The notes under the pieces were generated by a model that made no database searches, was not told where the DNA came from, and worked only from the letters and a program-made list of their open reading frames with translations. Shown here piece by piece: positions 7,697 through 35,173 of a DNA stretch of 64,000 nucleotides. Made by a program: the position numbers and the translations under genes. The DNA is taken from positions 558,001-622,000 of the forward strand of contig NZ_CP132295.1 of the NCBI RefSeq assembly GCF_030734285.1. The letters are read 5' to 3'. Position 1 is the first letter of the stretch, and every line of letters starts with the position of its first letter. The DNA is from Natronococcus sp. AD-5 (lineage in GTDB: Archaea; Halobacteriota; Halobacteria; Halobacteriales; Natrialbaceae).

Positions 7697-7730
7697 GGTG
7701 TTGTTCGTCCCCCTGAGAGGGGTGATCGGG
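7697..7730 (+). promoter_or_regulatory. Leader hairpin copy 1
   Basis: GGTGTTGTT, then CCCCCT-gag-AGGGG, then a weak GTGATCGGG, ending 2 bases before ATG 7733. First of 15 copies of the same element on this strand. The stem-loop is in the 5' leader of the acidic protein gene; it has no TATA box of its own. Confidence 0.7.
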
Positions 7731-7732
7731 AT

Positions 7733-7990
7733 ATGAGCTGGACAGATCAACACCAGACGGAAGACACAAAGGACGACGACCAGATCCTGAGCGAGGAATT
7801 CGACAACTGGGTTCGAGAAGGAGCAGTGCCAGGCGAGGAAGACGAGTCGGACGCAGACCAGACTGATACCACAGTGGACGGAGCCGACAGTACAGCCGAG
7901 AAGACGAGGCCAGCAGTAAGGGCGACCAGGTCGGGGCACCATCGACGAATTTGGTTACTGTCTCGAGGCAGGGATCAGATGAGCCACTGA
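7733..7990 (+). CDS. Small acidic protein headed by a leader hairpin
   Basis: 85 residues. The first 55 are extremely Asp/Glu-rich (for example DDDQILSEEFDNWVREG); the last 25 are basic and less typical, so the 3' end may have shifted frame. The TGA overlaps the next ATG by one base (TGATG, 7988-7992), a translational coupling seen throughout this region. No domain recognised. Confidence 0.55.
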   Translation: MSWTDQHQTEDTKDDDQILSEEFDNWVREGAVPGEEDESDADQTDTTVDGADSTAEKTRPAVRATRSGHHRRIWLLSRGRDQMSH

Positions 7991-8289
7991 TGATGACGCA
8001 GTGCCCGCGGTGTGACGGACGCGAGTTCGTCTCGAAGAAGCTCGTCTACGAGGAGTTCCACTACAGCGAAGCGGGTGAACTCGAGAGGCACCAGAACAGA
8101 GTTCGAGCCGAGTTCGAGTACACGTGTCTCGAGTGCCAGAAACGGTTCCATGAATTGCCGAGGGGTACGCGATCGTACTATACGGAAGTGGCGGTGCTGG
8201 GGCAGGATCTGCGGCGAGCGATTCGAGTACAGCTACGAGCATGGGGCAGTTCGATGAGGTCGTGGCTGCGGAAACCGTACAGAAGGTAG
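7990..8289 (+). CDS. Small zinc-ribbon protein
   Basis: 99 residues (98 if the second ATG is used). One zinc ribbon: CPRC at residues 5-8 and CLEC at about 47-50, with conserved strand FVSKKLVYEEFHYSEAGELERHQNR between. The C-terminal 25 residues are Arg-rich and low in acid, possibly divergent. Coupled to the upstream gene by a TGATG overlap, so probably the second gene of a two-gene unit under leader hairpin 1. Confidence 0.65.
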   Translation: MMTQCPRCDGREFVSKKLVYEEFHYSEAGELERHQNRVRAEFEYTCLECQKRFHELPRGTRSYYTEVAVLGQDLRRAIRVQLRAWGSSMRSWLRKPYRR

Positions 8290-8660
8290 GGAGTCAGTGC
8301 GGTTTGAGGAGGGATGGGTGAGAGTAGTGGGGTGAGGTGGGTGTGGAGCGGCGAGCAGAGGAGGACCGCACCGCACAGCACCACTCTCCCACAATCACTC
8401 ACCTGCACTCACCACCTTCCCCCTGCAGTTTTCTTTCACTCGAGCGAGTCAGTCACACACTGTGGGAGAGGCACATGGGGTTTTTCTCGTTACGTATGAT
8501 CGGTCAGGGTGGCCGTTGTTGAGAGTTCCGACGGCCTCCGCTCATTCGACCAAAACAGAACTACGATCCCATTCAAGCGTCAGCTTCCAGATGGGGTGGA
8601 TGGGCCCCATCCTGCAGAAGCCATACGAATTGTGCAGTACTGCCGTAATGCACAGTGGGG
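8290..8660. other. Gene-free stretch with purine-rich and complementary pyrimidine tracts
   Basis: 8300-8350 is G-rich (gggatgggtgagagtag...). 8381-8415 carries partly complementary cac/ctc-rich sequence, so a long imperfect fold-back is possible. A ggggttttt run near 8478-8486 could act as a terminator-like signal. I see no gene. Confidence 0.4.
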
Positions 8661-8930
8661 TCACTCAATGATTGACTCGAAGTCCACATCCCGGTCGTAT
8701 TGGTCACGATGGGCTACCGCTGCCTCTCCCTGCTCAGTGATTTCGTACAGTCCCGATCGTTCGGCCGGGCCGATCTTGCGAACAAGGCCATAGTCCTCAA
8801 GCACAGGCAGTCTCGTGCTGATGTTCTCGCGGGACTTTCCGGTGTAGAATGCCAAGTTAACAGCGACATTGCGCCCCTTCTCTTCGAGTTGCTCGAGGAC
8901 CAAGAAGTCAGTTGGTTGTCTCAACCTCAT
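8661..8930 (-). CDS. PhiH1-repressor-like winged-helix regulator
   Basis: 89 residues from ATG 8930 (a TTG two codons upstream is not needed). MRLRQPTDFLVLEQLEEKGRN, then ENISTRLPVLEDYGLVRKIGPAERSGLYEIT, is the small haloarchaeal winged helix related to the PhiH1 repressor/ArsR fold: recognition helix about 30-45, wing ending in LYEIT. A close relative, broken at its start codon, lies at 20898-21251. Expected to act as a dimeric DNA-binding repressor. Its own promoter is at 8956-8967. Confidence 0.8.
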   Translation of the reverse strand: MRLRQPTDFLVLEQLEEKGRNVAVNLAFYTGKSRENISTRLPVLEDYGLVRKIGPAERSGLYEITEQGEAAVAHRDQYDRDVDFESIIE

Positions 8931-8955
8931 AGTCAACTACACTTGTATCCATGAC

Positions 8956-8967
8956 TTATGATATATG
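8956..8967 (-). promoter_or_regulatory. TATA box for the winged-helix gene
   Basis: On the minus strand this reads catatatcataa, about 26-37 bases before ATG 8930. That places the start of transcription within a few bases of the codon (leaderless mRNA). Confidence 0.5.
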
Positions 8968-8989
8968 AAAATTACCCTTTCGTCACTCT

Positions 8990-9954
8990 CCCCTCTTTTC
9001 ACTCTCGAGTCGACCGACGTCCTACACAATCCGGTAGAACACTTCTCGAGTAGGAGCGACCGTTTCTTAACCAACGGTCGGGGGTGTCAATCGGCTGGCG
9101 TTGGTTAAGAGCACCCACCGTTTCCAGTGTTCTGACTGACTACATCCTCTGTATCTCGCACGTTGCTTATGGCCTGATATGAAGGAACCTGCGCCGGTAC
9201 GTGTGTTCACTGTACGTAGCACTCTTGATCCGGTGGTCTTGCTTCTCGAGGGCAGACCGAGTATTGTGCAGCTGGAACGGCCGGTACCCCTGGGTGACGA
9301 TCGAGACAGCAGTCCGAGGATTGGACAACTGAGATCGGCCTGACGGGGATGCGACGTGAACGATTGGTGGGTTCGATATCGGTGGTCCACGGGACACTCG
9401 AGAGGATAGAACACGCCAGGCGAGGAAGAGACAGGAAGGTATACACTGGTACGTTTGATGAGAGATGAAGATGATGTCGCGTGAGTGCAGACAGGCGTGT
9501 GAGTGTCTCGGGCTACGTAGGGCAGAGCGGGTCGACATGGAGGTGACGCTCGAGAAGAGGAGAGTAGAATGAGGGGCAGGGTGAGGGAAAGATCGTGACG
9601 GAGGAGTGGAGACGGAACGATGGTTATGAGGGAGACGACGTCGTTGAGGGGATGACTCGAGGGGAGAGGGAGAGAGGAGTACACTCCCACCGAAAGCCCT
9701 CGGCCACTCGGCATCCCGCGACCGCCGCTGTGCGCCTCACTGTGTTTGGTGCTTATGGGGTCGGGGAACGACCGAGACGGCCTCGCCCTTTTGAAGTCCA
9801 CCAGGAGAGCTGAAGCCGAGGAAGCGTTGGACCTCGAGGAACACGTCGTCGCGACGTCGGTGGAATGACTCCTCCCACATTTCCAGGCATGATCCTCAAC
9901 CCAAAGCACCAAACATTCCAAACAGCTATGTTCCAACAGTCCCAACACTAGTGT
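8990..9954. other. Long stretch without a supported gene
   Basis: The 381-codon minus-strand frame (9067-10212) runs across the real HTH gene on the other strand, is Ser/Arg/Pro-rich and lacks any motif, so it is not annotated. 9540-9690 is purine-skewed on the + strand. 9692-9790 is copy 1 of a dispersed GC-rich repeat. 9140-9155 has a degenerate form of the catcctctgtattcag word. Probably relics of lost genes. Confidence 0.5.
9692..9790 (+). repeat. Dispersed GC-rich repeat, copy 1
   Basis: Begins GAAAGCCCTCGGCC and ends GGCCTCGCCCTT. About 99 bp match copy 2 at 11608-11706 with scattered differences. Not coding in a convincing frame. I recall similar words as common repeats in haloarchaeal genomes; role unknown. 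Confidence 0.6.
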
Positions 9955-10314
9955 ATGTCGAGTGGCACCATAGATATCGACGAATTCGAGAACGCTGACG
10001 CTGACGAATTCGAAGAACGGAATGACACCGAGCGGATCGTGCTGTTCCTCGACGAGCACGATGACCGTGCGTGGAAGGCAGCGACGATCGCCGAGCGATT
10101 GGGCCTTGATACGGACGCTGTCAGTGCAATCCTCTCGCGATTGAAGGAACGCGGTCTTGTCCGTCACAAGCGCCCGTACTGGGCGATCACGGACGACGAG
10201 GAACGACTCCAATCTGCCTACCGGCTACACCGACACCACGAGGCTGCTGACGAACAGTATGGTGAGGAGCGTCTCGAAGATCTTCAGACCGACGAGATGG
10301 AGCAAGTCCAGTGA
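9955..10314 (+). CDS. HTH antitoxin-like protein
   Basis: 119 residues. An acidic N-terminus (about 1-22), then a MarR-like winged helix: ERIVLFLDEHDDRAWKAATIAERLGLDTDAVSAILSRLKERGLVRHKRPYWAIT. The C-terminal tail is charged and may wrap the toxin. Its TGA overlaps the GTG start of the MazF-like gene (GTGA at 10311-10314), the classic coupling of a type II toxin-antitoxin pair. Likely represses its own operon. Confidence 0.75.
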   Translation: MSSGTIDIDEFENADADEFEERNDTERIVLFLDEHDDRAWKAATIAERLGLDTDAVSAILSRLKERGLVRHKRPYWAITDDEERLQSAYRLHRHHEAADEQYGEERLEDLQTDEMEQVQ

Positions 10315-10652
10315 CTGCATTCGAGGAACTGGAACGCGGCGACATCGTCTGGGGGACTGACCCGCTCTCGGAGAAAGGTCGCCCCTTGCTCGTTCTAGGG
10401 ACTCCTCGATTCCCGAACCACGGGATACAACTCATCACGGTCCTGCTTTCCACGAAGAACTACCACGAGGAGGCACTCACACTCCGAGACGACGACTACC
10501 AGGGCGACCCACTCGGGGAACGGAGTCACGTCCTCCCGTGGTCGCTCGTGACCCTCAACAGTGCTGCAGACGTAGAATTCTATCTAACATCGCTCGTCGA
10601 CGACCGCACCGAGGATGTGGCGAGCCAGCTGATCGACTACATCTCCTCGTGA
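10311..10652 (+). CDS. PemK/MazF-like toxin
   Basis: 113 residues, starting GTG. An SH3-like barrel pattern typical of MazF: LERGDIVWGTDPLSEKGRP near the N-terminus, RPLLVLGTP, and later GDPLGERSHVLPWSLVTLN. MazF/PemK toxins cut RNA. The GDIVW and RP...LVL motifs are in the expected places and the length is right. Couples to the HTH protein upstream. Target and activity cannot be read from sequence. Confidence 0.75.
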   Translation: MTAFEELERGDIVWGTDPLSEKGRPLLVLGTPRFPNHGIQLITVLLSTKNYHEEALTLRDDDYQGDPLGERSHVLPWSLVTLNSAADVEFYLTSLVDDRTEDVASQLIDYISS

Positions 10653-10662
10653 ACGGACTTTC

Positions 10663-10907
10663 CAGTTTCCAATAGCGACCCCGGGAGCACAGGGCTCCTT
10701 ACAGTCAGATTCGACGAGAGAACTCGAGATCAGTCCGCTTGAACTCCAAATCACGTACAAATTCCAGCTCACACAAGCTGCAGACAGTCTCAGCGGGAAG
10801 GACTTCGACGATGCAGTCCACCTGTACTTGACTTTCGAGGAGCGATTTAACTCGAAGCAGCTCGAAACGTACGTCAAAGAGCTTGGCTGGCGATTAGCTG
10901 GTTTTGG
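10663..10907 (+). pseudogene. Fragment of a nucleotidyltransferase-like protein C-terminus
   Basis: An open frame without start codon reads LEISPLELQITYKFQL, then GKDFDDAVHLYLTFEERF and LETYVKELGW. That is the C-terminal pattern (ELQI-YK.....KDFEDA.HLY) of MNT/AbiEii-like nucleotidyltransferase proteins. It runs into the opposite-strand repressor gene without a stop. Probably debris of a second defence or TA gene. Confidence 0.55.
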
Positions 10908-10931
10908 TTCTCGGGTTGTCGCCAGTCAGGT

Positions 10932-11192
10932 TCATTCGCCCTCAAGGTCACGTGCGTCGAGCTCGCCGGCGAGATACTGTTTCCCTTCACGGGTGATCTC
11001 GTAGACACCGTTCCCGAGATGAACGAGGAGACCGTAGGTGACGAGTGTTTTACAGCGGGCGTTGATGTGCTGTCGAGAGAAGCGGACGCGGTCACTGTCA
11101 GCCATTGCTTTCGGGGTATCGGGGCCCTCTTCAGCAAGATGCTCCAGAATGCGATCATCGGCGCGTGACATCCAGTCGGCGTCAAAGCGCAT
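10932..11192 (-). CDS. PhiH1-repressor-like winged-helix protein
   Basis: 86 residues. MRFDADWMSRADDRILEHLAEEGPDTPKAMADS, then FSRQHINARCKTLVTYGLLVHLGNGVYEIT, is a compact winged helix with the recognition helix near 40-52 and the wing at GNGVYEIT. The acidic tail (ELDARDLEGE) is typical. The family includes the repressor of halophage PhiH. Single gene; operator not identified. Confidence 0.8.
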   Translation of the reverse strand: MRFDADWMSRADDRILEHLAEEGPDTPKAMADSDRVRFSRQHINARCKTLVTYGLLVHLGNGVYEITREGKQYLAGELDARDLEGE

Positions 11193-11313
11193 AATAATCT
11201 CTGGTTGCGCCGACGCTATCCCAAACGCGTTAAGTCAATCAGAGAAGCTATAAGCAATTATAGTTGACTCCCAACCTTTTAAACACTACCCATCCTAAGC
11301 GTTAGACGTTACA

Positions 11314-11574
11314 ATGGATCACTCGTCAACGACTGGGTCTGGGGAAACGACTGACCTCTTGGTCGACATCATCGAGACGCTCGAAGCGTGTGGGGTGGGT
11401 CAAGATGAGTACCAGCTGTACGACTCCATCGATGTCGAGGCGCTCGAGGAGCTTTTAAACTCGTCCACCGAGGACGTAGAAGTACAGTTCACAGTGAAGG
11501 GCGTTCGGCTTGCGGTGACGCCGGAGAGCGTCGACGTCCTGATCGACCGGGAGTCCATTCCACCGAACCCGTAG
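11314..11574 (+). CDS. HalOD1 output-domain protein
   Basis: 86 residues. After a short polar leader, LLVDIIETLEACGVGQDEYQLYDSID, then VEALEELLN and VEVQFTVKGVRLAV, follows the HalOD1 pattern: helix, Y-x-x-IDxxALxxLL, then a beta-hairpin. HalOD1 is a haloarchaeal signalling output domain, often attached to receivers; here it stands alone. A second copy is at 27247-27501. Partner unknown. Confidence 0.75.
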   Translation: MDHSSTTGSGETTDLLVDIIETLEACGVGQDEYQLYDSIDVEALEELLNSSTEDVEVQFTVKGVRLAVTPESVDVLIDRESIPPNP

Positions 11575-12185
11575 CCGGTATCGCGGTCGACATCCGAGAC
11601 ACTCCCTGAAAGCCCTCGGCCGCTCGGCATCCCGCGATCGCCGCTGCGCTCCTCGTGCCTATGGTGCTGGCGGGATCGGGGGACGACCGAGACGGCCTCG
11701 CCCTTTCTGAGTCCGCCAGGATAGCGGTAGTGTTGCCAAGCGACGTGACCGGCTGGACAGGTGTTTCGTACCGGCACGCCCCGCTCGCCGCGTTCCGCCC
11801 TCCGCGTCGCTCGCGACCGACCATTCCGGGCATGCGGGCGCTCTCCGCACCGCTCGCGCCCGTTCCGGGCTAAAGTCCATGTGCCCTCGACGCCAGCGCT
11901 TCACCCGTTCGGGTCCTGCGGACCTCGGCAAAGCCGACCGCGACGGACGTGGTTGCGTCGCGGCGAACGGGGAATGCGCTGGGCGCTCGCTCCGGGCGGG
12001 TCGGCGCGCGGAGCTGGCTGGGTCTCCTCCTAAGGCGCGCTCTCGCTCGCGCCCAGGGGGCGCTCGCGAAGGCGCAAGCGAGAGCGCGCAGACGAGTCTG
12101 TCGGACGGTGATATCCGTTGAAAACCGCGATGCTACCACATCGCGGTGTCGGGCGCGTGAGCGCCTTCAGGATCGGTGAGATCCA
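11575..12185. other. GC-rich gene-free stretch with inverted repeats
   Basis: Contains repeat copy 2 (11608-11706), then very GC-rich sequence rich in gctcgc/gcgagc words (for example gctctcgctcgcgccc near 12043 and the complementary gcgcaagcgagagcgc near 12071). Just before the RPA-like gene there is cgcgatg...catcgcg (12127-12143). The open frames on both strands are Arg/Ala/Pro-rich and not gene-like. No TATA box is obvious, so how the next gene is expressed is unclear. Confidence 0.5.
11608..11706 (+). repeat. Dispersed GC-rich repeat, copy 2
   Basis: Second copy of the sequence at 9692-9790, same strand, about 1.9 kb apart. The shared cores are GAAAGCCCTCGGCC, CTCGGCATCCCGCGA and ACGACCGAGACGGCCTCGCC. 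Confidence 0.6.
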
Positions 12186-13046
12186 ATGTCTAGTACAAAC
12201 TCAAGTAGCAAGGAGGTTTCGGTCGATGAACAGACGGATGAACAGAAGAGCGGACGAGCGGTTGATGAGGACGGGTTCGAGGTCGTAGATGAGACGCCGA
12301 CGTTCGAGGCATCGGTCGACCAGGAGGTACACACGAAGGTCGAGACCGAGCACCCGGAGACGGTGGTCGGACGGAACGAGAACGAGTATGGCCACCTGCC
12401 GTTGGCCCAGGAAGAGGAGATCCGGGCTCGGGAGGAAGAGCTCGAGCGGATCAGCGCGAAAGCAGCGTTCGGCCAGCAAGAAGGGCGTGAGGAGCGCACC
12501 CGTGAAGTGGTCGTCGAGCAACGCCGTGTGCGGCGGGTCGAGCGGGTTGACCCCCGGTTGGAGTTGGAGCAAGCGGAGGTTGCAGAGGTCAACACACAGG
12601 CGATGCGGATCACGGAGAGCGTGCGCGGGGGACCAAGCCGGGCAGCGGTGAGCCGTGGGCTGGCCGAGAAGATCGAGAAGGGGAAGTCGATGATCGATGC
12701 GACCCTTGAGCAGATGGAAGAGGTGAAAGCCGAACCAGGATCGATCGTAGCCATCGCGGACGTCCCCGAGGTCGAGACAAGCGAAGTGGACGTGGAAGGC
12801 GAGATCATCGAACTGTGAGAGCCCTCAACGCCCTCGATCCAACAGGTCGGGCTGATCGCAGACGACACGGAGAAAATCAAGTTCACGGTCTGGAAGAACT
12901 CATACCAGACGAAGGTGAGCGAGGGAGAGACCGTGCGGTTGCGGAACGTAAAGAAAAACTGGCACAACGAGTGCTGTAATCTGGCCGTGACTGGCTGGAG
13001 CCGGATCGAGTTCCCTGAGCGCGGGCGGTGGTGGACCCAGGAATAG
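12186..13046 (+). pseudogene. RPA-like single-strand DNA-binding protein, split by an in-frame TGA
   Basis: A first 210-residue segment is acidic and helical (about 80-130 Glu/Arg-rich coiled coil) and ends in ETSEVDVEGEIIEL. TGA follows (12816-12818), then the same frame runs 75 codons to TAG 13046: EPSTPSIQQVGLIADDTEKI...FTVWKNSY...VRLRNVKKNW...VTGWSRIEFPERGRWW. The second part is the OB fold of haloarchaeal RPA-like proteins, in which LWEPS is usual, so the TGA is best read as a former TGG (Trp). Without read-through only a truncated protein is made. Plasmids often carry such proteins for replication. Confidence 0.7.
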
Positions 13047-13253
13047 CGTCGCTCCCCCTCTTTTTATGTGTACGACCTCCCGCTCGCTTCGCTCGCGTCC
13101 TCCCCACCCTCCTCGCGTCGCTCCCGATGGTCGCTCTCTCGTCCCTCGCACGCGGACTGCGCGGTGCGCAGTCTCGCACGCGCCACCGCCCCGCAGGAAG
13201 ATGGTGGACCGAACCGCTTGGAATGGATTGGCCAAGAAAGCGCACCGCTCGGT

Positions 13254-13288
13254 GGTGTTGGATCGTACTCCCCGAGAGGGGTGAGGGA
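13254..13288 (+). promoter_or_regulatory. Leader hairpin copy 2
   Basis: GGTGTTG followed by CTCCCC-gag-AGGGGTGAGGGA, 7 bases before ATG 13296. Same element as copy 1. Confidence 0.7.
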
Positions 13289-13295
13289 GAGTCGA

Positions 13296-13388
13296 GATGG
13301 CATCACCAGTACTGCATCCGTCGATTCGTCGGGATGTGGCTCGACGCGACCCGCCGATGTACGTATCGGTAGCAGACACAGCTGCGTG
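13296..13388 (+). CDS. 30-residue ORF behind leader hairpin 2
   Basis: MASPVLHPSIRRDVARRD...VADTAA, ending TGA 13388. It is placed at the standard distance after the hairpin and Shine-Dalgarno, which is the main argument for translation. It may be the stump of a longer gene or a leader peptide for the TFB-like gene that starts 26 bases later. No family recognised. Confidence 0.35.
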
Positions 13389-13413
13389 AGCGCCTGTCTC
13401 CCCGTGAAATCCC

Positions 13414-14503
13414 ATGTCAACAGAGAGTTCTGTCCAGTTTGGCGAATCGGTTGTACAGCAGTCCAAACACGACACCGCCAGTTCCCAGGTGATCACGGAC
13501 ACTCACGCGGTCACGAAAACGAAGCCGAGTGAGCGCGAGCCTGCCCGCCAGTCGACGTGTGCCGAGTATGAGGGACAGATCATCACGGCAGAGCATACGT
13601 CATACTGCGAGGAGTGCGAGTTAGTCGTCACGGCCCGACACGGCGTCGACACGGACCAGACGAACGGAGCGGTCGCCACGAGTAGAGTTGTGAGTCGGTC
13701 ACGCAGCTCGCATCGACAAGGGCCTGCATACGACATTCTTCCTCACCAGTGACGGCTACGGCAACGCGCTCTCAAGCAAGCAACAAGACAAATACGATCG
13801 GCTGAAGCAGCGCCACAAGCGCTTCCAGGTCGAGAGCAAACGCGCGATCCGGCTCAACGAGGCGCTTCGGGACGTCCAGTTAATTGGGGGCAATCTCGGG
13901 CTCCCACAGCATGTGGTCGTCGACGCTGGACGGCTGGTGAAGCGGGCTAGCGAGGCTCGCGTGCCGGGTGCATGGACCTCGTGGGAAGGGGTCGCCGCGG
14001 GTGCAGTATTGCTTGCGGCGACGAATGCTGATCGGGATCGCTCACCGCGAGAGGTAGCGTGCTACGGGAAGGTGGATCACGCCCGAATGTGTGCAGCCGC
14101 GCGCAAAATCCGGTGCTATACCGACGTAGCGTATCCACCAATGCGAGCAAACGCGATCGAACAGGTCCTCGAGACGCTCGACACGGACGTCCTCGATGGC
14201 GGGGCGTACCTCCAGTGCAGAGACGTCGCACGACACCTGATGGAGATCGCTGACGAGGTACCGATCGGTGCGGGCACGCCACGATTGACCGTCGCGGCAG
14301 CCGCCGTCTACCGTGCAGATCGGGTACTCGGCGGTGAATTCCTCACGATGCAGCAGGTCGCTGATGCCGTGAGTGCGATCGTCGAGACGAGCAAGGACAA
14401 GATCAATCGCTACTCTGCAGAACTCCGTGAGGAGTATCGCGAGCGAGCGAAGACTGACGCCCCGAGCGTGCTTCGCGACCGAGGACGCATCACGGTACAG
14501 TGA
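13414..14503 (+). pseudogene. TFB-like (transcription initiation factor IIB) gene with frameshift and damaged zinc ribbon
   Basis: The N-terminal frame holds a TFIIB-type ribbon, QIITAEHTSYCEECELVV, but the first knuckle reads CAEY instead of CxxC. After about 90 codons the frame must shift by one near 13690. It then gives RIDKGLHTTFFLTSDGYGNALSS, the cyclin-like repeats (YDRLKQRHKRFQ...; LPQHVVVDAGRLVKRA...; TVAAAAVYRADRVLGG...) and ends at TGA 14503. Archaeal TFB bridges TBP and RNA polymerase; haloarchaea keep several, some on plasmids. An internal ATG at 13913 would start a ribbon-less C-terminal half. Confidence 0.75.
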
Positions 14504-14553
14504 CCGACTCTGCGGGCGGGGTTCTCGGACGCTACCCACTGTCTGCGAACGTC

Positions 14554-14585: not shown

Positions 14586-14595
14586 CAGATTACCC

Positions 14596-15471: not shown

Positions 15472-15507
15472 GGTGGCGTTGTTCGCCCCTCATGAGGAGT
15501 AGAGGGA
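15472..15507 (+). promoter_or_regulatory. Leader hairpin copy 4
   Basis: GGTGGCGTTGTTCG, then CCCCTC-at-GAGGAG, then TAGAGGG, 9 bases before ATG 15517. The loop and outer pairs differ from other copies but the pairing is kept. Confidence 0.65.
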
Positions 15508-15516
15508 TCAAAGACG

Positions 15517-16313: not shown

Positions 16314-16347
16314 GTGGTGTTGTTCACACCCTCGAGAGGGATGGAGG
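16314..16347 (+). promoter_or_regulatory. Leader hairpin copy 5
   Basis: GTGGTGTTGTTCACA, then CCCTC-ga-GAGGG, then ATGGAGG, 9 bases before ATG 16357. About 40 bases separate it from the inverted-repeat element. Confidence 0.75.
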
Positions 16348-16356
16348 TTTTCACAG

Positions 16357-18249: not shown

Positions 18250-18282
18250 GTGGTGTTGTTGCCCCCTCGAGAGGGGTGGAGG
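18250..18282 (+). promoter_or_regulatory. Leader hairpin copy 6
   Basis: TGGTGTTGTTGC, then CCCCTC-ga-GAGGGG, then TGGAGG, 9 bases before ATG 18292. One of the best-paired copies. The gene it served is now destroyed by an IS. Confidence 0.75.
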
Positions 18283-18291
18283 TTTTTCCAG

Positions 18292-19156
18292 ATGATAGAT
18301 CGACCCGAGAGGTACTGTCTATAGTAAACATTAGAAATAATTGCTCATTTTGGGAATAGTGAGTTGATCAAGAGCGGTATCGATCGCTGTTGTCAGCTCA
18401 GAAAGCGAGTCGAAGAATCGATTGCTAAGTGCTGATTGTAGCTGTCTCCAGCACTCTTCGACTGGATTGAGTTCCGGTGAATACGCCAGTAACGTAACGA
18501 AGGCAAGGTCGTCACGGGCCGCCAGGTCCGTGACGGCCGACGCCTGGAAATACGGCGCTCCATCCAACACGATAATCAAGTTGTCTTCGAACTCTTTGCA
18601 TAATGCGAGAATGAAATCTGACGGTGGACTCGAACCGACTGAAGAAAACGTTGCGACCTCACTCGAGGATTTCGGTGCCGACGTGAGTCATCGCGACGCC
18701 GAAATGCGTCTTGACTGACCCGCTGCGAGCGAGTTCGGCGTCGACGACCGCGTCGAAGTTCGGTACTCGGAGGCCGGCAACATGGACTAGGCATCGCTGT
18801 TCGCGGATACAGCCGACGACCAGCAGACGCTAACGGGCGAGGACGCCAGCGCCAGTTCCTCTTCGATTCGCCTGGTGAGAACAGTGATTGAGCCCTCCGA
18901 GAGCACCCACAACGGCGAACGAAAGGTCACATATCCAGACCCGAGAACATGCATACTCGCGTTAGCCGCAGTGACTCCCGATCCGCTAGTCAAAGGCGGA
19001 TACACCCATGGTGATCTGTGTTCCCGCTGCGAGGCAGCGGTGTTGGCCGGACGATTCAATGAAGAGGGAGAGCAGTTTCTCGAGTGCGCAGCCAGTGGGC
19101 GAACGCTCACACCTGCTATCATTATGTTCACGCCGTCTCGCAGTAGTGAGTCATGA
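18292..19156 (+). pseudogene. Degenerate copy of the zinc-ribbon gene at 32858, split by an IS630 fragment
   Basis: Starts MIDRPER, matching MSDRPE at 32858. It is interrupted from about 18310 by IS630 sequence and resumes near 18624 with LEPTEENVATSLEDFGADVSHR. Stops follow at TGA 18716-18718 and TAG 18788-18790 (CAG in the intact copy). A frame change then leads to STHNGERKVT...LAAVTPDPLV.GGYTHGDLCSRCEAAVLAGR. Last Cys pair of the ribbon is lost. Clearly non-functional. Confidence 0.8.
18331..18612 (-). pseudogene. IS630-family transposase, C-terminal fragment
   Basis: Minus-strand frame ...DFILALCKEFEDNLIIVLDGAPYF, then LAYSPELNPVEECWRQLQSAL, to TAA 18331. The LDGAP Asp and the PELNPVEECW Glu are the last two residues of the DDE triad of IS630/Tc1-like transposases. 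The N-terminal two thirds, including the first Asp, are missing; the break joins the host gene near 18613-18624. Usual length is about 340 residues. Confidence 0.75.
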
Positions 19157-26553: not shown

Positions 26554-26587
26554 GTAGTGTTGTTGCCTCCTCGAGAGGGGTGGAGGG
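26554..26587 (+). promoter_or_regulatory. Leader hairpin copy 7
   Basis: GTAGTGTTGTTGC, then CTCCTC-ga-GAGGGG (one G-U pair), then TGGAGGG, 9 bases before ATG 26597. Confidence 0.75.
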
Positions 26588-26596
26588 TTTGAACCG

Positions 26597-27501: not shown

Positions 27502-27610
27502 GACATGATCACTCCATCAGCGGCGAGTCGTACGAACGGTGTGCTCTCTAACCGTCGATTGTACCACCTGGGCTCTGGGTAGTTGCTTGAACCCCTGGTG
27601 CGATCGATCG

Positions 27611-27642
27611 TGGTGTTGTTCGCCCCCAGAGAGGGGTGAGGG
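27611..27642 (+). promoter_or_regulatory. Leader hairpin copy 8
   Basis: TGGTGTTGTTCGC, then CCCC-agag-AGGGGTGAGGG, 8 bases before ATG 27651. Confidence 0.75.
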
Positions 27643-27650
27643 TTTCATAG

Positions 27651-28322: not shown

Positions 28323-28356
28323 GTGGTGTTGCTCACCCTCTGAGAGGGGTGGAGGG
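28323..28356 (+). promoter_or_regulatory. Leader hairpin copy 9
   Basis: GTGGTGTTGCTCA, then CCCTC-tga-GAGGGG, then TGGAGGG. The nearest recognisable ATG is 28398, farther than usual; a GTG at 28360 starts a 16-codon frame instead. Confidence 0.7.
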
Positions 28357-28397
28357 CGCGTGTACAAGCAATACGTGCTCTCCAGGACGAGATCACC

Positions 28398-28855: not shown

Positions 28856-28862
28856 GCGAACG

Positions 28863-29036: not shown

Positions 29037-29046
29037 CCTCTGTTCA

Positions 29047-29080
29047 GTAGTGTTGATTCTCCCCAGAGAGGGGTAGAGGG
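29047..29080 (+). promoter_or_regulatory. Leader hairpin copy 10
   Basis: GTAGTGTTGATTCT, then CCCC-agag-AGGGG, then TAGAGGG. The next start, GTG 29096, is 15 bases away. Confidence 0.7.
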
Positions 29081-29095
29081 ACAACGCGACGACTC

Positions 29096-29338: not shown

Positions 29339-29606
29339 TGGGAAAACCGAAGAAGAGATCCTCAAGGACCTTCGCGACGGTCGTCGACGAAACCGAGTAC
29401 GGACAGCACGCAACAGACTGTCTCAGCCTTCAAACGTGATTGATCGAGAGATGGATTCTTTCAAGATGGGTGGCGGTGACCGATGGAGTCACCGCTGCAC
29501 AGTATCGCAATTCTGCGAAGGAAGCAACACATATCTAGACAGGCGGTGGGGCAGAATACGTCTCAAGGCCTCACTCGGCAGATTTCGGATTGAGTCAGTC
29601 GTATAA
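29331..29606 (+). CDS. Small protein whose 3' end is cut by a MITE
   Basis: MGNGKTEEEILKDLRDGRRRNRVRTARNRL, a charged helical start, then KMGGGDRWSHRCTVSQFCEG. From 29542 the frame runs into the inserted element, so the last 20 or so residues are not original. Starts inside the previous gene (8-base overlap). Family not recognised. Confidence 0.45.
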   Translation: MGNGKTEEEILKDLRDGRRRNRVRTARNRLSQPSNVIDREMDSFKMGGGDRWSHRCTVSQFCEGSNTYLDRRWGRIRLKASLGRFRIESVV

Positions 29607-29716
29607 ACAGGAAGGAATCAGCGGATTTTCCCATTAGCCTCGGAGTAGAAAATTAGATCACCCGTAGAACTGAGATCAGTAAGTACAGAGCCTGTGAAGA
29701 CTTCTGCCCCACCGCC
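29542..29716. mobile_element. MITE-like element, 175 bp
   Basis: Perfect 15-bp terminal inverted repeats GGCGGTGGGGCAGAA (29542-29556) and TTCTGCCCCACCGCC (29702-29716), flanked by a 9-bp direct repeat atctagaca (29533-29541 and 29717-29725). No coding capacity, so it would have been moved by another element's transposase. It sits in the 3' end of a small gene. Confidence 0.8.
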
Positions 29717-29725
29717 ATCTAGACA

Positions 29726-30095
29726 GGTAGGAAAGAGGTAACGGCGAAAAACATGGATAAAGTGCCTCTGGCTGGTAACTATCGAATCAACAACAGCTGT
29801 CTAATCTCTAAATAGAGAGTATACAATATTTATAGATGATCTTTTTGATCTGTTAATTAGTTTGAGACAATCTCTGTCGCATCGAACGATCGGCCGCAAC
29901 ATCTCATTGTTTCCTCACAGAAGTCAACAGTCCAACCGTGCCGGAACTTGTCACCCGCAATAAGCCCTGCAGGCCTTGTTGAGGTCTCATTCTTCAGATG
30001 TGATTTTGGTTGAAACAGCTGTTACGTAGAAATGCGAACTGAACAGTACTCCGTGTTCGGTACATTTTATCTCGTTCCTTACTAACCTTTGAGAT
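29726..30095. other. AT-rich intergenic stretch
   Basis: No gene. ctctaaatagagagtatacaatatttatag (two words around 29806-29838) contains a short inverted repeat and TATA-like sequence. The promoter of the SHOCT gene is probably the ttttatc near 30065. Confidence 0.4.
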
Positions 30096-30608
30096 ATGGT
30101 TTCCCGCCACTGGCTGTATTTCGGTGGATTCGTAATCACTGGAATCCTGCTGATCGGTGCTACTCTGATGGGAATCGTGGACGGTCTGTCAGCCCTATCT
30201 GGTAGTGTACCTGCCAGTGAGGAGTTCATTCTGTTAGCAATGCTCGGGGAAGCCGCTGAATGGGTTATGATCGTACTTGTCCTCGGGTTATTCGCAGTGG
30301 TATTTCTCGCTGTGACAGTTATCTCTGTCCTCCGGACCGCGTCTCTTCCTCGCGACGATAGACTGGTCTCAATCGTCGAATGGGTTGAACGGAGGTACCC
30401 GGTTCTCCGTCGATTCGATGTCACGGAGAAGGTCAGCCCGACAAGTGAGGATCAACGACAGCAACTCAAAGATCAGTATATTTCCGGTGAGATCAGTGAC
30501 GCCGAATTTGAGCGGGAGATGGGGCAGCTGATGGATGACGCTACATCAAAGGAGAAGTCACAGTCTAGAACCGAGACGGCAATCGAAATCGACGATAAAT
30601 CACGATGA
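30096..30608 (+). CDS. SHOCT-domain membrane protein
   Basis: 170 residues. Two membrane helices, about 5-27 (WLYFGGFVITGILLIGATL) and 55-80 (WVMIVLVLGLFAVVFLAVTVI). The cytoplasmic tail ends in a SHOCT motif, QQLKDQYISGEISDAEFEREMGQL. SHOCT domains are short oligomerisation tails on many small haloarchaeal membrane proteins. Single gene; start at the first ATG before the first helix. Confidence 0.75.
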   Translation: MVSRHWLYFGGFVITGILLIGATLMGIVDGLSALSGSVPASEEFILLAMLGEAAEWVMIVLVLGLFAVVFLAVTVISVLRTASLPRDDRLVSIVEWVERRYPVLRRFDVTEKVSPTSEDQRQQLKDQYISGEISDAEFEREMGQLMDDATSKEKSQSRTETAIEIDDKSR

Positions 30609-30842
30609 CTATAGACTCTGTATTGGACGGTTCGCGGGTGGTCTTAACAAGGTATGCGATACTTTGAATCTCTCTTGCAATATAATAAACAAACCCATCG
30701 GTGCACGTGACGGGGTTGAACTCTCTGCCAATCGGGTCTGGTGCTCTCTGGTGAGGAGTTATCGGTCTGGCAAACACTCATGTCGTTGAATGAATGGATG
30801 CGGTTTTCCCACGATTGGCTGCAATAGAACCCGTCAACCGTG

Positions 30843-31136
30843 TCATTCGTCCGCCGATACCGGTTCGCCGTCTTCCATCTGCCATTCGAGTTCGACTTCT
30901 AACTCGGCCTCGTCATCGGTTACCTCGTACTCGACTTCCAGTTCGAAGTGCTCTGGAACCGCCACCATGAAACCGTTCTCTCCTTCAATGTCGATTGTCC
31001 CGTTCTCGACACCATCAGCGACTTCACGGAGGATCCCCGCACCCTCTGCCCGACTCATCACCCGCTCACCTTCACGTTCCGTCTCATCATCTGCCGATTC
31101 CGCTTCGGTCTCGGATTCTTGTTTGTCGTTTGCCAT
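30843..31136 (-). CDS. Amphi-Trp domain protein
   Basis: 97 residues. A disordered acidic N-terminus (about 1-26), then VMSRAEGAGILREVADGVENGTIDI and PEHFELEVEYEVTDDEAELEVELEW, the pattern of the haloarchaeal amphi-Trp domain (helix, then two amphipathic strands ending in Trp). Role not established. Own promoter at 31161-31168. Confidence 0.8.
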   Translation of the reverse strand: MANDKQESETEAESADDETEREGERVMSRAEGAGILREVADGVENGTIDIEGENGFMVAVPEHFELEVEYEVTDDEAELEVELEWQMEDGEPVSADE

Positions 31137-31160
31137 ACCGGGCCTACAACGGCTGCCAAT

Positions 31161-31168
31161 AAAATATC
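31161..31168 (-). promoter_or_regulatory. TATA box for the amphi-Trp gene
   Basis: Minus strand reads atatttta, 25-32 bases before ATG 31136; a leaderless or near-leaderless transcript is expected. Confidence 0.5.
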
Positions 31169-31431
31169 TCGGGCTTCATATCCGCCCAGTTTGATCGGCG
31201 GTAGTCACCACTTCCATCGAGGCATTACCGGAAGAATCCTTACTGTATTGAGTGGTAAGTCTATCTCCTACACTTATCGCTAGGAGTGCTTGACCTATCA
31301 TCTGTAGAGAATTGGAACAGAGCCGCCTTTCAATCCAATATCTAGTTTTACTTTCACTCCACTACCCGGAGATTAACTAGGGCAGGGATAAGAGCGGACA
31401 CTGACGACACACCGGAGAGTCACACGACACC

Positions 31432-32460
31432 ATGAACTACGACAATGACGACCGCTGGGAGTTCGTTCCCGAAGACGAAGGAAGTATTGCCCCCGATGCG
31501 ACCGACTCGAGGGCCGTCGACGACGGCAGCTACGAACGCGTCGACGACTCACTCGAAACCGATCACGTGGCGTATCCAGACGCTCCTAAACCAGCGTCCC
31601 ACGAGGATAAATCACCTGCTGAGAATCGGTGCGAGTGTGGCACGGAGATCGCTCACGATCGAACAAAGTGCGACTTCTGTCTCACGAACAGTCTCGACTA
31701 CGGTGATCTAGCGGTTGAACCCGACACCGAGCGCGAGCTCACTGGGCTGATTCACGTTCTCGTCGACGCGAAAACCGAGCACACCGCCATTAGCAAAGCC
31801 AAAGCCGTCTTCAAAGGACTGACTGGCAATCCCTTCACCACCTCTATCGACGGTATCGACGAGTGCGAAGTGATCGCCGATTTCGAGGGCGAGCTCGTGA
31901 CGCGATTCACTCGCGAATGGGGTCAGTTGCCTGGTGCCGCTGCCGTCGAGACGACTGAAGGACAGCGCCAGCTCGATATCATCCGTCAGAATGCCGGCCA
32001 CGACTACACTATAGCTGCTGAGGAGAGCACCGACAACACCGAGGAAAACCGACCGACGCTTGAGCCAGTGCTATTCGACGCCGAGGGAGAGCCGATCACT
32101 GACATCGAGGAGGTCGGCCAGCTTATCGCCGGCGGCACGCTCGAACGGACCAGTCCCACATGGGATACTGACGAATACCCACGACGTGACGATCCAACAC
32201 GCACCTGGATTGTGCCTGCGATTGCTCTCGAGCACGTGTCTCCACCGGATCACTCCGAGAGATTCCCTCGCGCGGGGCGAACTCGTCGCAATTTGAAGTG
32301 TCGATCGTGCGGTGAGTCGACGCGCCACAAATTCGGTGGCTTCGATGAAGTGCCAGTTCCAGAGATTCCCGACACGCCGATCTGGGAATGTATCAGGTGT
32401 CAGTCTCCCCGACACGGCCCGGATCCTGACAGTCCGAGAGGGGACACGCACCACCGGTGA
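31432..32460 (+). CDS. Two-ribbon acidic protein heading the 31-36 kb gene series
   Basis: 342 residues. N-terminus (1-60) is acidic and disordered. RCECGTEI...KCDFC (about 68-85) is the first cysteine site. The middle domain (about 100-200) has helices and strands without a known motif. CRSCGES...WECIRCQSP near the end is a C-terminal zinc ribbon. Similar haloarchaeal proteins have, as I recall, been labelled biosurfactant protein 1, a name that says little about function. It has no leader hairpin and is the first gene of the series. Confidence 0.6.
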   Translation: MNYDNDDRWEFVPEDEGSIAPDATDSRAVDDGSYERVDDSLETDHVAYPDAPKPASHEDKSPAENRCECGTEIAHDRTKCDFCLTNSLDYGDLAVEPDTERELTGLIHVLVDAKTEHTAISKAKAVFKGLTGNPFTTSIDGIDECEVIADFEGELVTRFTREWGQLPGAAAVETTEGQRQLDIIRQNAGHDYTIAAEESTDNTEENRPTLEPVLFDAEGEPITDIEEVGQLIAGGTLERTSPTWDTDEYPRRDDPTRTWIVPAIALEHVSPPDHSERFPRAGRTRRNLKCRSCGESTRHKFGGFDEVPVPEIPDTPIWECIRCQSPRHGPDPDSPRGDTHHR

Positions 32461-32528
32461 ACTAGGAGCCTGGATGTGCGAGACGCTCTCGCTGCACCAA
32501 GATGGTCGTCAGACCAGAGGCACCGTCT

Positions 32529-32564
32529 CGTGGTGTTGTTTCTCTCCTCAAGGGATGAGAGGAG
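32529..32564 (+). promoter_or_regulatory. Leader hairpin copy 11
   Basis: CGTGGTGTTGTTT, then CTCTC-ctcaagggat-GAGAG, then GAG, 6 bases before ATG 32571. A different sequence from the other copies but still a stem before the start. Confidence 0.65.
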
Positions 32565-32570
32565 TCCACG

Positions 32571-32780
32571 ATGTCAGATACCGACCAGATTGACGAGCCA
32601 CTGACGCCACAACAGCGCCTCGAGTCATCGAATAGCCGGCTCATTGATGCGGGAATCGCGACGATCACCGACATGGAGACACTTCAGGCGTGTGCCGCCT
32701 ACGAAAACCAGCACCAGCAACGCCTTCCGATCCTCGAACAGCTATCTCGACGAGCTGAAGAACTCCGCGAGGAATTGTGA
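32571..32780 (+). CDS. 69-residue helical protein
   Basis: MSDTDQIDEPLTPQQRLESS, then RLIDAGIATITDMETLQACAAYE and a Leu/Glu-rich helix (RLPILEQLSRRAEELREEL). A likely helical bundle or coiled coil. A shortened relative is the ORF at 27651. Start fixed by leader hairpin 11. Function unknown. Confidence 0.6.
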   Translation: MSDTDQIDEPLTPQQRLESSNSRLIDAGIATITDMETLQACAAYENQHQQRLPILEQLSRRAEELREEL

Positions 32781-32812
32781 CTGGTCCACCGGTCGCGATG
32801 TCCTCGAGCTCT

Positions 32813-32849
32813 GGGAGTGTTGTTTGCACCCTCCCAGAGGGGTGGAGGG
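32813..32849 (+). promoter_or_regulatory. Leader hairpin copy 12
   Basis: GGGAGTGTTGTTTGCA, then CCCTC-ccaga-GGGGTGGAGGG, 8 bases before ATG 32858. Confidence 0.7.
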
Positions 32850-32857
32850 TTTTACAG

Positions 32858-33409
32858 ATGTCAGATCGACCCGAGATTACGATCCAACAGCAGACAGCGT
32901 TCACCGACGATGGTGAACTTGAACCGACTGAAGAAAGCGTTGCGACCTCGCTCGAGGATTTCGGTGCTGACGTCAGCCATCGCGAGGTTGAAACACGACT
33001 CGATCGCCCCGTAGCCAGCGAGTTCGGCGTCGACGATCGCGTCGAAGTTCGGTACTCCGAGGTTGACGACACTGATCAGGCATCACTGTTCGCGGATACG
33101 GCTGATGACCAGCAGACGCTGATGGGCGAGGAAGCCAGCGCACAGTTCCTTTTCGATGCTCCCGGTGAGAACATGACTGATTCTTCCGAGAGCACCCACA
33201 ACGGCGAGCGAAAGGTCACATCTGCGGACGCAAAAACACGCATACTCGCGCTGGCCGCAGCGACTCCTGATCCACTCGTCGTAGGTGGATACACCCATGG
33301 TGATCCGTGTCCCCGCTGCGAGGTAGCGGTGTTGGCTGGACGAGTCGACGAAAACGGAGAGCAGTTTCTCGAGTGCGAGCGGTGCCTGTACCGTCCTACA
33401 AGCGGGTGA
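32858..33409 (+). CDS. Zinc-ribbon protein, intact parent of the pseudogene at 18292
   Basis: 183 residues. MSDRPEITIQQQTAFTD, then LEPTEESVATSLEDFGADVSHRE and VASEFGVDDRVEVRYSE in the first half. The C-terminal third carries GDPCPRCEVAVLAGRVDEN...FLECERCLYRP, a complete CxxC...CxxC ribbon. The middle has an acidic linker. Start fixed by the hairpin leader and by its paralogue. Not a family I can name. Confidence 0.7.
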   Translation: MSDRPEITIQQQTAFTDDGELEPTEESVATSLEDFGADVSHREVETRLDRPVASEFGVDDRVEVRYSEVDDTDQASLFADTADDQQTLMGEEASAQFLFDAPGENMTDSSESTHNGERKVTSADAKTRILALAAATPDPLVVGGYTHGDPCPRCEVAVLAGRVDENGEQFLECERCLYRPTSG

Positions 33410-33436
33410 AACGCCGAGTCTCCACTCACATCGCCC

Positions 33437-33469
33437 GGTGGTGTTGATCGCGCCTCAGAGGCATGGAGG
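33437..33469 (+). promoter_or_regulatory. Leader hairpin copy 13 (short stem)
   Basis: GGTGGTGTTGATCGC, then GCCT-cag-AGGC, then ATGGAGG. The next start is 31 bases away (33501). Stem sequence is different, pairing kept. Confidence 0.55.
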
Positions 33470-33500
33470 CGCTCGAAACAGAGCGCTTTCGGTGAGATCG

Positions 33501-33578
33501 ATGTTTTACGAAACCGACTTCCCAGAGACGAATCGCCACCGAACCGTCCTCGAAGCGCTCGAGAAGGAGCGATCCTAA
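33501..33578 (+). CDS. 25-residue ORF coupled to the next gene
   Basis: MFYETDFPETNRHRTVLEAL...ERS, ending in TAATG (33576-33580) that shares an A with the ATG of the next gene. Small, but the coupling and leader suggest translation. It may serve only to load ribosomes onto 33578. Confidence 0.4.
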   Translation: MFYETDFPETNRHRTVLEALEKERS

Positions 33579-33928
33579 TGGGTGCCGTGACGTTCGAGAC
33601 GCTTTCGTTCGGGGAGACTGCCGACGAGGCGTTCAGTAACGCCGTTGCGGACGCGAAGCATATGCACGGACACGCCGGGTACACGGGGACGGTCGCCGAG
33701 AAATCCTTGTTCGAAGTCATTCCCAAACAAGAGCATCATGGGAAGCAGAAACGTCGATACGCACACCAGCTGATCGAGGACAGTGATGAGCGGATCTGCC
33801 AGAAGTGGGGTCCCGCCGGAGCGATCAACTGCTCGGGAACGGCGGGCGCCAAGCGTTATCGCGAACAGCACGGGTTGAAAGGCAAGCACGGCGACGTCTG
33901 GCTCTTCTTCGGCTGGCCCTCCCACTGA
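33578..33928 (+). CDS. Unknown 116-residue protein
   Basis: MGAVTFETLSFGETADEAFSNAVADAKHMHGHAGYTGT..., then a basic middle (KQEHHGKQKRRYAHQL) and WGPAGAINCSGTAG...WLFFGW. Alpha/beta, less acidic than neighbours. Possibly phage- or plasmid-derived; family not named. Coupled to the 25-residue ORF by TAATG. Confidence 0.6.
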   Translation: MGAVTFETLSFGETADEAFSNAVADAKHMHGHAGYTGTVAEKSLFEVIPKQEHHGKQKRRYAHQLIEDSDERICQKWGPAGAINCSGTAGAKRYREQHGLKGKHGDVWLFFGWPSH

Positions 33929-33945
33929 TCCGACCCCTCGCATGC

Positions 33946-33981
33946 GGTTCTGTTGTTCCACCTCCCTTCAGGAGTGAGGAG
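33946..33981 (+). promoter_or_regulatory. Leader hairpin copy 14
   Basis: GGTTCTGTTGTTCCAC, then CTCC-cttca-GGAG, then TGAGGAG. It lies 115 bases before ATG 34096 because the inverted-repeat element copy 3 lies between. Confidence 0.6.
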
Positions 33982-34014
33982 ACTCGCGTTTCAGGCGTCA
34001 CCATCCCAGTCGTA

Positions 34015-34057
34015 GTTACCCCACGACCGCGGGATCTCTCCCGATTTGTGGGGTAAC
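34015..34057. repeat. Nested inverted-repeat element, copy 3 (no core)
   Basis: GTTACCCCAC (34015-34024) and GTGGGGTAAC (34048-34057) around 23 bases of unrelated sequence. Same outer arms as copies 1 and 2 but lacking the 111-bp core. Sits between leader hairpin 14 and the DUF6610-like gene. Confidence 0.75.
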
Positions 34058-34095
34058 GGAATGAGTGCCCAACGCGGGTTCCCGAAGTCCGTTCC

Positions 34096-35103
34096 ATGTC
34101 ACACTCAGCACACTCGACAGCGATCAGTGCCGACAGTGCCGCCGAGATTCGAGCCGCTCGCCAGGCTGACTACGTCGCATTTCTCCATCGAGTCCCGTTC
34201 GCGATCGACGCACTCTCCCTCGGCTACGCGACCGGGTTTCGTGAGAATTGTTCCTACCAGCATACGCAGTACGAGACGCTCGAGTTGCCAGTCGGAATGC
34301 TCGACAACGACTTTCGCAATCCCGACCTCGAGCGATACATCGAGCGCTTCAGGGAGTACGAGCCTCACGTTGGTGTCCTCGGTGATGCTTACTCCGTCGA
34401 CGAGGCCCATGAGTACGTTCGCGCTTCGCGCGCCCTCCAAGCGAGTTATCCTGAATCGGAGCTCATGATCGTGCCGAAGTGCCGCGAGGCGATCGACGCG
34501 ATCCCGGAGGACATCGTACTCGGCTACCCGCGTGGGTACTCCGACCAGCTCGTACACGAGTTCTCCGATCCGGCAGACTGGCGTGGCCGACGAGTCCACA
34601 TTCTCGGCGGCAGTCCACGCAAGCAGGTAACCGCGATCGAGGCACTCACTCGGCCAACGCTCTCCGGGGATCCATCGGCAGACATCGTGAAGCTCGATTG
34701 GAACGGCTTGCATCGAGGAGCACAGTTCGGCGAATTCTGGACAGGCGAGGGCTAGGACGACAGCGGGCGGGACGCTGATCACGTCACCGTTTGAAAGTTA
34801 GTGCGCCACAGCTTGGGCCAGATCAAGGCCTTCTGGGAGGCTCAGGGCATTTGGCCGGAGACACAGCTCCACGACGTGGACGTCGATCTCGAGTACGAGG
34901 GACCAACGCCGAGCGACCTACAGAGCGCGGCGTGTGCAGCGTGTGGAGCGAACGTCTGGACAACCGACCGTGGCCCGTTCGTGGCTGAGTACGATACCGG
35001 TGAGGTCTGTGGGTACTGCTCGTACGACTGTTACTTCGAACATCGGACGCAGAACCGACTCGAGAAGATCGTCGACGAACGGAGCGTCTTCATGCCGCCG
35101 TAA
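34096..35103 (+). pseudogene. DUF6610-like protein with two in-frame stops
   Basis: A 219-residue first part (AFLHRVPFAIDALSLGYATGF, YETLELPVGMLDNDFRNPD, IVPKCREAIDAIPEDIVLGY, RRVHILGGSPRKQ, GLHRGAQFGEFWTGEG) meets TAG 34753-34755. The frame goes on DDSGRDADHVTV, TGA 34792-34794, then LVRHSLGQIKAFWEAQGIWP and a ribbon CAACGANVW...CGYCSYDC to TAA 35103. Relatives I recall read WDDSGRD and a VR start there, so a Trp and probably an Arg codon were lost. The DUF6610 name is from memory. Confidence 0.7.
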
Positions 35104-35139
35104 GCCGTTTTTTCACTTGAAGTCAGGTGTGCGACGAGC

Positions 35140-35173
35140 GTGATGTTGTTCGTCCCCCTGAGAGGGGTGAGGC
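35140..35173 (+). promoter_or_regulatory. Leader hairpin copy 15
   Basis: GTGATGTTGTTCGT, then CCCCCT-gag-AGGGG, then TGAGG. Nearly identical to copy 1. The ArdC-like gene starts 39 bases further on (35213). Confidence 0.7.

Follow-up and report, generated by a model that had tools for sequence, protein, structure and literature searches.

The 64,000-nt stretch of Natronococcus sp. AD-5 analyzed here (contig NZ_CP132295.1, positions 558,001 to 622,000; hereafter the window, in whose positions all copy coordinates are given) carries a short hairpin-forming element repeated 14 times within positions 7,695-35,181, always on the + strand. The element is almost certainly real and one-stranded, it recurs far more often than chance would allow, and comparison of its copies across haloarchaea gives high confidence that it is under selection as a folded single strand. 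The same comparisons suggest that it probably controls the expression of the gene downstream, and we lean toward its belonging to an establishment-type regulon. The full reading favored here, in which the element would serve as the cis-acting control site shared across an establishment (leading-region-like) regulon of conjugative-type haloarchaeal plasmids, appears evenly balanced, as does its proposed action as single-stranded DNA (ssDNA) rather than RNA. Little is understood of how haloarchaeal plasmids pass from cell to cell and withstand host defence. The element, which occurs in more than half of the haloarchaeal genomes sampled and reaches 52 copies in one, provides a handle on such plasmids and marks, by sequence alone, presumed establishment genes; most of these have no function assigned so far, and their products are thus candidates for a role in anti-defence. 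Action of the fold as ssDNA would represent a new way of starting transcription in Archaea, as well as evidence for single-strand plasmid transfer with a defined polarity.

Distribution and fold of the element

A first, sequence-only reading of the window had counted 15 copies from 7.7 to 35.2 kb, each on the + strand and upstream of a start codon. Fourteen are found in that interval, 14/14 on the + strand, and most precede an open reading frame (ORF), typically with the ATG 17 nt past the motif GAGAGG; copies 8, 9, 12, 13, and 14 have no start codon nearby, and in several of these a second hairpin stands before a start located 45-120 nt away. A further candidate outside the interval, at 37.4 kb, was added by R2, a structured model built from copies in other loci. 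R2 also recovers 12 of the 14 copies, with + strand matches throughout, and gives a single, weak minus-strand match (E 2.5) overlapping the same candidate. R1, a model of sequence alone made from the 14 window copies, detects nothing in the window beyond these. A strict pattern with 3 mismatches tolerated matches the window 3 times versus 0 in 100 shuffles, and the exact pattern has no match in the genome.

Copies outside the region, which the sequence-only reading had anticipated, are widespread. Within the same genome, R1 marks 36 places, 35 of them on the 1.02-Mb replicon carrying the window, in three clusters that are each one-stranded (~51-122 kb, minus; 565-593 kb, plus; 949-994 kb, minus), the other contig giving a single weak match (E 0.67). 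R1 matches were detected in 43 of 119 related genomes and included dense one-stranded arrays; one genome (G034, loci L063-L066) stood far above any other seen, with 52 matches over many contigs. A search with R2 extended this to 171 of 292 haloarchaeal genomes and 57 of 77 genera, and a phylum-wide draw outside haloarchaea yielded at most one weak match per genome in 9 genomes, which we took as background. In Halobacterium salinarum R1/NRC-1, elements lie at 81.7-90.0 kb on pHS1 and at 306-317 kb on pNRC200. A search of viral contigs for ArdC and two exact element patterns found none.

From 105 copies at 21 loci, the consensus reads GTGGYGTTGTT, a pyrimidine arm, GAGAGGGGTR, a G-rich strand, and then the ATG, which most commonly follows GAGAGG by exactly 17 nt. 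A wider survey of leaders, covering genes on pNG600, pHS1, and pCBA1232-02 together with 84 loci around ArdC, revealed a family-wide layout of ~40-60 nt, in which GTTTTT or GTTGTT and a spacer lead into a stem of 5-9 bp whose loop ends in GARGGGYG or a near variant; the start codon follows. Across haloarchaea, the stems are unrelated in sequence (GCGCC/GGCGC, ACCCCCG/CGGGGGT, ACCCC/GGGGT, CCGGG/CCCGG, the inverted GGGGC/GCCCC, TCGTCCCG/CGGGACGA, GTCGCCTC/GAGGCGAC, and GAGCCTCC/GGAGGCTC). In the family-wide consensus, the distal strand is the partner of the 5' arm. Orthologous ArdC leaders were found in 80 loci; in such leaders (L084-L156), a conserved second hairpin (GGCGCGGTCTGAACAGACGCAGTCGCC) lies 30-60 nt before the ArdC start (position 10001 in most loci), and GGTGA stands 6 nt before the ATG.

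This layout revises the stem first proposed, in which CCCYTC paired with GAGRGGG and a GGAGG in or next to the stem served as Shine-Dalgarno sequence. When arms were swapped among all copies, the 5' arm matched its own distal G-rich strand better than those of other copies (p 0.0002-0.004), an effect that was smaller for the proximal GAGGGG strand; it weakened with stricter de-replication, and most within-locus swaps were not significant. RNAalifold, applied to 14 and then to 105 copies, yielded only 3-4 pairs and little covariation for the proximal stem itself. Since pairing in other haloarchaea joins the 5' arm to the distal strand, GAGRGGG is best seen as mainly loop and the putative Shine-Dalgarno sequence as the 3' arm, which in other members reads GGCGC, GCCCC, CCCGG, or CGGGACGA, i.e., the stem holds no conserved ribosome site.

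Evidence for selection on the fold comes first from an unbiased arm-swap test on copies picked by U tract and loop core alone, with no pairing criterion. Own arms paired better than swapped arms (z = 9.5, with 0 of 2,000 permutations as high), compared to z = 1.2 for antisense look-alikes; raw counts for the U tract plus loop core were 431 sense versus 62 antisense. We ranked this test first because the second line of evidence, 150 members aligned by R2 (110 distinct rows), leans toward structure: in that alignment, all 8 of 8 pairs changed on both sides, 84% of cells were paired, and the covariation score reached 0.54 versus 0.14 when shuffled and ≤0.14 for slid structures. Stems that differ completely yet stay paired thus indicate a folded single strand under selection, as the sequence-only reading had proposed. 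Two other approaches gave no such signal: most copies, folded singly, were not unusually stable relative to shuffles (copy 9 reached an RNA fold z of -3.53), and a fixed-alignment covariation scan of the first 105 copies, in which the arm register varies, was not usable.

Internal G.T (G.U) pairs were nearly absent from the stems, with 1 among ~870 pairs in 127 strong helices, fewer than in the arm-swapped null. As a control, the acceptor and T stems of 15 tRNAs from the same genome, counted by position, contained G.U in 5 of 120 interior pairs. DNA helices reject G.T more strongly than RNA helices, and the near-absence of such pairs therefore favors a folded single DNA strand, although the helix may instead be one of constrained RNA. 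G.T and A.C mismatches, compared for sense against template strand, were both too rare to decide. No Rfam covariance model matched the window at gathering threshold.

Element arrays, the genes they serve, and transfer genes

Arrays of the element follow the strand of their genes. Across 58 loci, nearly all around ArdC genes, the element shared the strand of ArdC in 294/294 matches, and in 39 further loci 238 of 239 matches lay on one strand. An ORF of ≥40 aa, as called automatically, started ≤70 nt downstream in 544 of 587 copies. The genes served mostly encode small proteins and fall into about two dozen unrelated multi-member families, in line with the functional mixture noticed in the sequence-only reading: they include ArdC, DUF6166, DUF6610, DUF6735, DUF7567, plasmid TFB, and C5 DNA methylase, the rest having no known function. 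The TFIIB (TFB) gene at L160:12981-13925, from a family of six members, carries the element, and an element-headed TFB is a possible factor for the regulon.

The arrays also have a defined end. Over the 10 kb up to ArdC, 9-39 + strand matches per kb were counted, with almost none past +4 kb. Arrays thus stop within ~4 kb downstream of the ArdC start, their end lying ~3 kb past the ArdC-type gene. The ArdC-like gene of the window has orthologues ~70-86% identical on haloarchaeal plasmids, and the order DUF6610, a gene of ~100-115 aa, and ArdC is kept in Haloarcula, Halobacterium, Halorubrum, and the window's lineage. ArdC of the conjugative plasmid R388 is required in the recipient (PMC7213743).

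The element genes are further linked to conjugation-type genes, a link that is missed by the sequence-only reading. On pHTUR03, genes for a VirB4-like ATPase, a T4CP-like protein with a PH domain, and an archaeal primase lie upstream of the array on the same strand, in a transfer module that also holds primase-associated and other genes. Among 21 genomes or plasmid records, 26 contigs held both a VirB4-like gene and elements, and the two shared a strand on 24 of them, the exceptions being two contigs of one genome (G335). The array typically lies 15-40 kb downstream of the VirB4-like gene, as transcription runs; a few contigs have an element upstream of that gene. Taken together, the presence of ArdC, the strand shared with transfer genes, and the one-strand rule thus suggest the layout of a leading-region establishment regulon.

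Two other functions of folded ssDNA have to be weighed against this layout. If the copies were cassette sites, where folded ssDNA at gene borders allows attC-like gene gain and shuffling, one would expect free stem sequence with pairing kept, few G.T pairs, and a single strand, as in attC-type sites. The element shows these features, and the arrays do carry small accessory genes. However, the element stands 5' of ORFs by the start codon rather than 3', the gene order around ArdC is conserved across families, and no integron-type integrase was seen beside arrays in annotated plasmids, where no systematic search was made. We therefore consider recombination at cassette borders, which the sequence-only reading had raised, improbable. 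Equally improbable, in our view, are ssi/sso-like priming sites, at which a primase would start the complementary strand on an incoming ssDNA plasmid: the hairpins are one-stranded and the pHTUR03 transfer module holds primase and primase-associated genes on the same strand, but the many copies per 10-30 kb, each near a start codon, are more in line with gene expression than with replication alone.

Table 1. Element copies and array-end genes in the window
Feature	Position	Strand	Context	Evidence
Copy 1	7695..7733	+	directly before ATG 7733 (MSWTDQH.. family)	R1 28.6 bits; R2 match
Copy 2	13252..13290	+	before ATG 13297	R1 24 bits
Copy 3	15473..15511	+	before ATG 15517 (73-aa Cys-rich protein)	R1 28.9 bits; R2
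Copy 4	16314..16354	+	before ATG 16357 (185 aa)	R1 32 bits; R2
Copy 5	18250..18289	+	gene split by transposase-like insert	R1 38.7 bits
Copy 6	26554..26591	+	before ATG 26597 (106-aa zinc-ribbon type)	R1 35.2 bits
Copy 7	27610..27646	+	before ATG 27651	R1 35 bits; R2
Copy 8	28323..28362	+	then second hairpin (GCGCGTGTA..TACGTGC), ATG later	R1 32.5 bits
Copy 9	29047..29086	+	outer stem extended GTGTTG/CAACGC; ATG 29129 later	R1 29.6 bits
Copy 10	32530..32570	+	before ATG 32571; variant stem CTCTC/GAGAG (also CTCCTC/GAGGAG)	R1 19.3 bits; R2 27 bits
Copy 11	32814..32856	+	before ATG 32858; stem ACCCTCC/GGAGGGT	R1 31.5 bits; R2
Copy 12	33438..33477	+	stem GCGCCTC/GAGGCGC, 9-nt loop	R1 22.3 bits; R2 23.7 bits; DNA fold
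Copy 13	33947..33988	+	diverged; before DUF6610 gene	R1 19.3 bits; R2 weak
Copy 14	35140..35181	+	long-leader form, second hairpin GCGCTTTCG..CGAGAGCG; before ArdC-like gene	R1 29.7 bits; R2
Candidate copy 15	37409..37445	+	class-wide form (GTTTGTGACCCCTGAAAGGGTGCGGGGGCTC)	R2 21.7 bits
DUF6610 protein gene	34096..34755	+	conserved end of array	Pfam PF20314 E 1e-61
ArdC-like anti-restriction gene	35213..36196	+	near array end	Pfam ArdcN 2.9e-5

Several neighboring features of the window were recorded alongside these copies (Table 1). In the segment 18250-19156, copy 5 heads a decayed duplicate of the gene at 32858-33409, with a transposase-like segment inside and a remnant that resumes at 18620-19088. 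A gene pair at 9955-10652 (119 and 113 aa) includes a second protein that, by eye, resembles a MazF/PemK-type toxin; an AbrB/MazF pair is annotated within the pHTUR03 array. After the ArdC-like gene comes a PH-domain gene (36520-37089), with a partial copy 11.7 kb on (48119-48833). On pHTUR03, the same PH domain occurs as a fusion with the T4CP-like protein, which hints that the stand-alone gene has a role related to transfer. Beyond the array, positions 58196-61888 hold genes for 2-oxoacid dehydrogenase E1 and E2 components.

Promoter signals and the action of the fold

The absence of a TATA box before the copies, already noted in the sequence-only reading, holds in the window and family-wide: a TATA-like motif at -45..-15 was found for 0.00 of element genes versus 0.09 of controls on comparable replicons. 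Nor is there an AT peak before element genes, with an AT content of 0.30-0.37 at about -35 to -25 versus 0.54-0.58 in controls. With no promoter signal, transcription must either come from far upstream or begin at the element. In 47% of element genes, the 100 nt ahead of the start contain a TTTTT tract, which is terminator-like in archaea and speaks against simple read-through.

From these patterns, we infer that the element would fold once the DNA or its transcript becomes single-stranded, and that this fold would let the downstream genes be expressed upon plasmid entry into a recipient. In the version we favor, the hairpin would form in the transferred single DNA strand and provide a start site for RNA synthesis by RNA polymerase or the plasmid's own primase, with genes read early and silent after the DNA has turned double-stranded. 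This version predicts that the template strand is the one transferred and that the ArdC end goes in first. In its most specific form, this would be the first ssDNA promoter system in Archaea, in which a hairpin with an obligatory loop, formed solely in the transferred strand, starts anti-defence and establishment transcripts in the recipient. We regard this specific form as tentative and hold it at somewhat less than even confidence.

The fold could instead belong to ordinary (polycistronic) mRNA, as a 5'-leader or intercistronic hairpin that would control translation, either through a loop recognized by a shared RNA-binding factor of plasmid or host or by setting mRNA ends. Selection on a single-stranded fold would be expected for such a leader as well, the element lies directly before starts, with the ATG often 17 nt past GAGAGG and, in the window's lineage, GGAGG at ribosome-site spacing, and the second hairpin of long-leader copies makes sense in RNA. 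However, G.U pairs, which RNA helices accept, are nearly absent, GGAGG is not kept in other families, and element genes lack promoter-like sequence nearby and often have a terminator-like TTTTT tract ≤100 nt before the start. Translational control centered on a Shine-Dalgarno sequence, as first suggested, finds no support when the G-rich arm changes completely between gene families; a shared control factor, proposed in the same reading, is plausible. Overall, an RNA leader regulon is the main rival explanation, possible but less likely than not.

A number of observations weigh against the establishment regulon and its ssDNA version. When the VirB4 and T4CP of pHTUR03 were used as queries in the Natronococcus genome, no full-length homologue was found, and on the window's megaplasmid the T4CP query gave short PH-domain matches alone; without full-length VirB4 and T4CP of this type, the arrays of this megaplasmid may be inherited cargo. 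The order of entry and the template strand are guesses as long as these plasmids have no described transfer origin, relaxase, or nicked strand, and most of the genes served lack a known function. Polymerase recognition finds no obvious basis in the fold, which contains no sigma- or TATA-like signal and has GC-rich, variable stems. The scarcity of G.U pairs was measured on related copies and might also arise from an RNA helix bound by protein. In the window's lineage, GGAGG persists in the 3' arm at 9 nt from the ATG, as expected of an mRNA ribosome site. More generally, contigs, plasmids, and copies are related, and their counts are not independent.

Comparison with known systems

Searches of open-access full text turned up no report of this element, although subscription journals could hold one. 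Among described elements that act as folded single strands, integron attC sites share a free stem sequence and a location at gene borders, but the haloarchaeal element lies 5' of the ORF, has a conserved loop, and occurs in a stable gene order; no attC R'/R'' core sites were apparent by eye in the aligned copies, which were not scanned for them. Leader hairpins of mRNA of the CsrA-type or riboswitch-like kind resemble it in having a conserved loop by the start codon of unrelated genes, and differ in that the element has no Rfam match, no conserved ribosome site, and almost no G.U pairs.

Among described systems, EGeRS1 of pLS20 comes closest: this structured sequence precedes the ribosome site in ardC and in four further establishment operons, contains no promoter, and blocks read-through by an unknown mechanism (PMC8708921). 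Both are repeated, structured, promoterless sequences upstream of establishment genes including ardC, EGeRS1 being predicted to fold as ssDNA or RNA, and the haloarchaeal element likewise provides a shared structure before ardC (80 loci) and other genes (about two dozen families). EGeRS1, however, is a Bacillus sequence of 400-600 bp with many inverted repeats, whereas the haloarchaeal element is a single stem-loop of ~40-60 nt with a U/GU tract. The nicked strand of pLS20 is the non-template one.

A second parallel is found in the F plasmid, where the transferred strand is the template for the genes of transfer and of the leading region, which share one direction of transcription. The Frpo/ssi ssDNA promoters of such regions were reportedly described by Masai and Arai in 1997. 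In F and ColIb-P9, leading-region anti-defence genes lie on one strand together with these promoters (PMC11541004). Like the haloarchaeal copies, Frpo/ssi hairpins are one-stranded and oriented as the transfer genes, and in the F leading region they head anti-defence genes. The haloarchaeal fold is much shorter and is known from sequence alone; folded Frpo/ssi DNA recreates a -10/-35 promoter, whereas no such element, nor an archaeal TATA-like one, is present here. By analogy, the logic of Frpo/ssi, and possibly that of EGeRS1, may be realized in haloarchaeal plasmids with a different, archaeal sequence.

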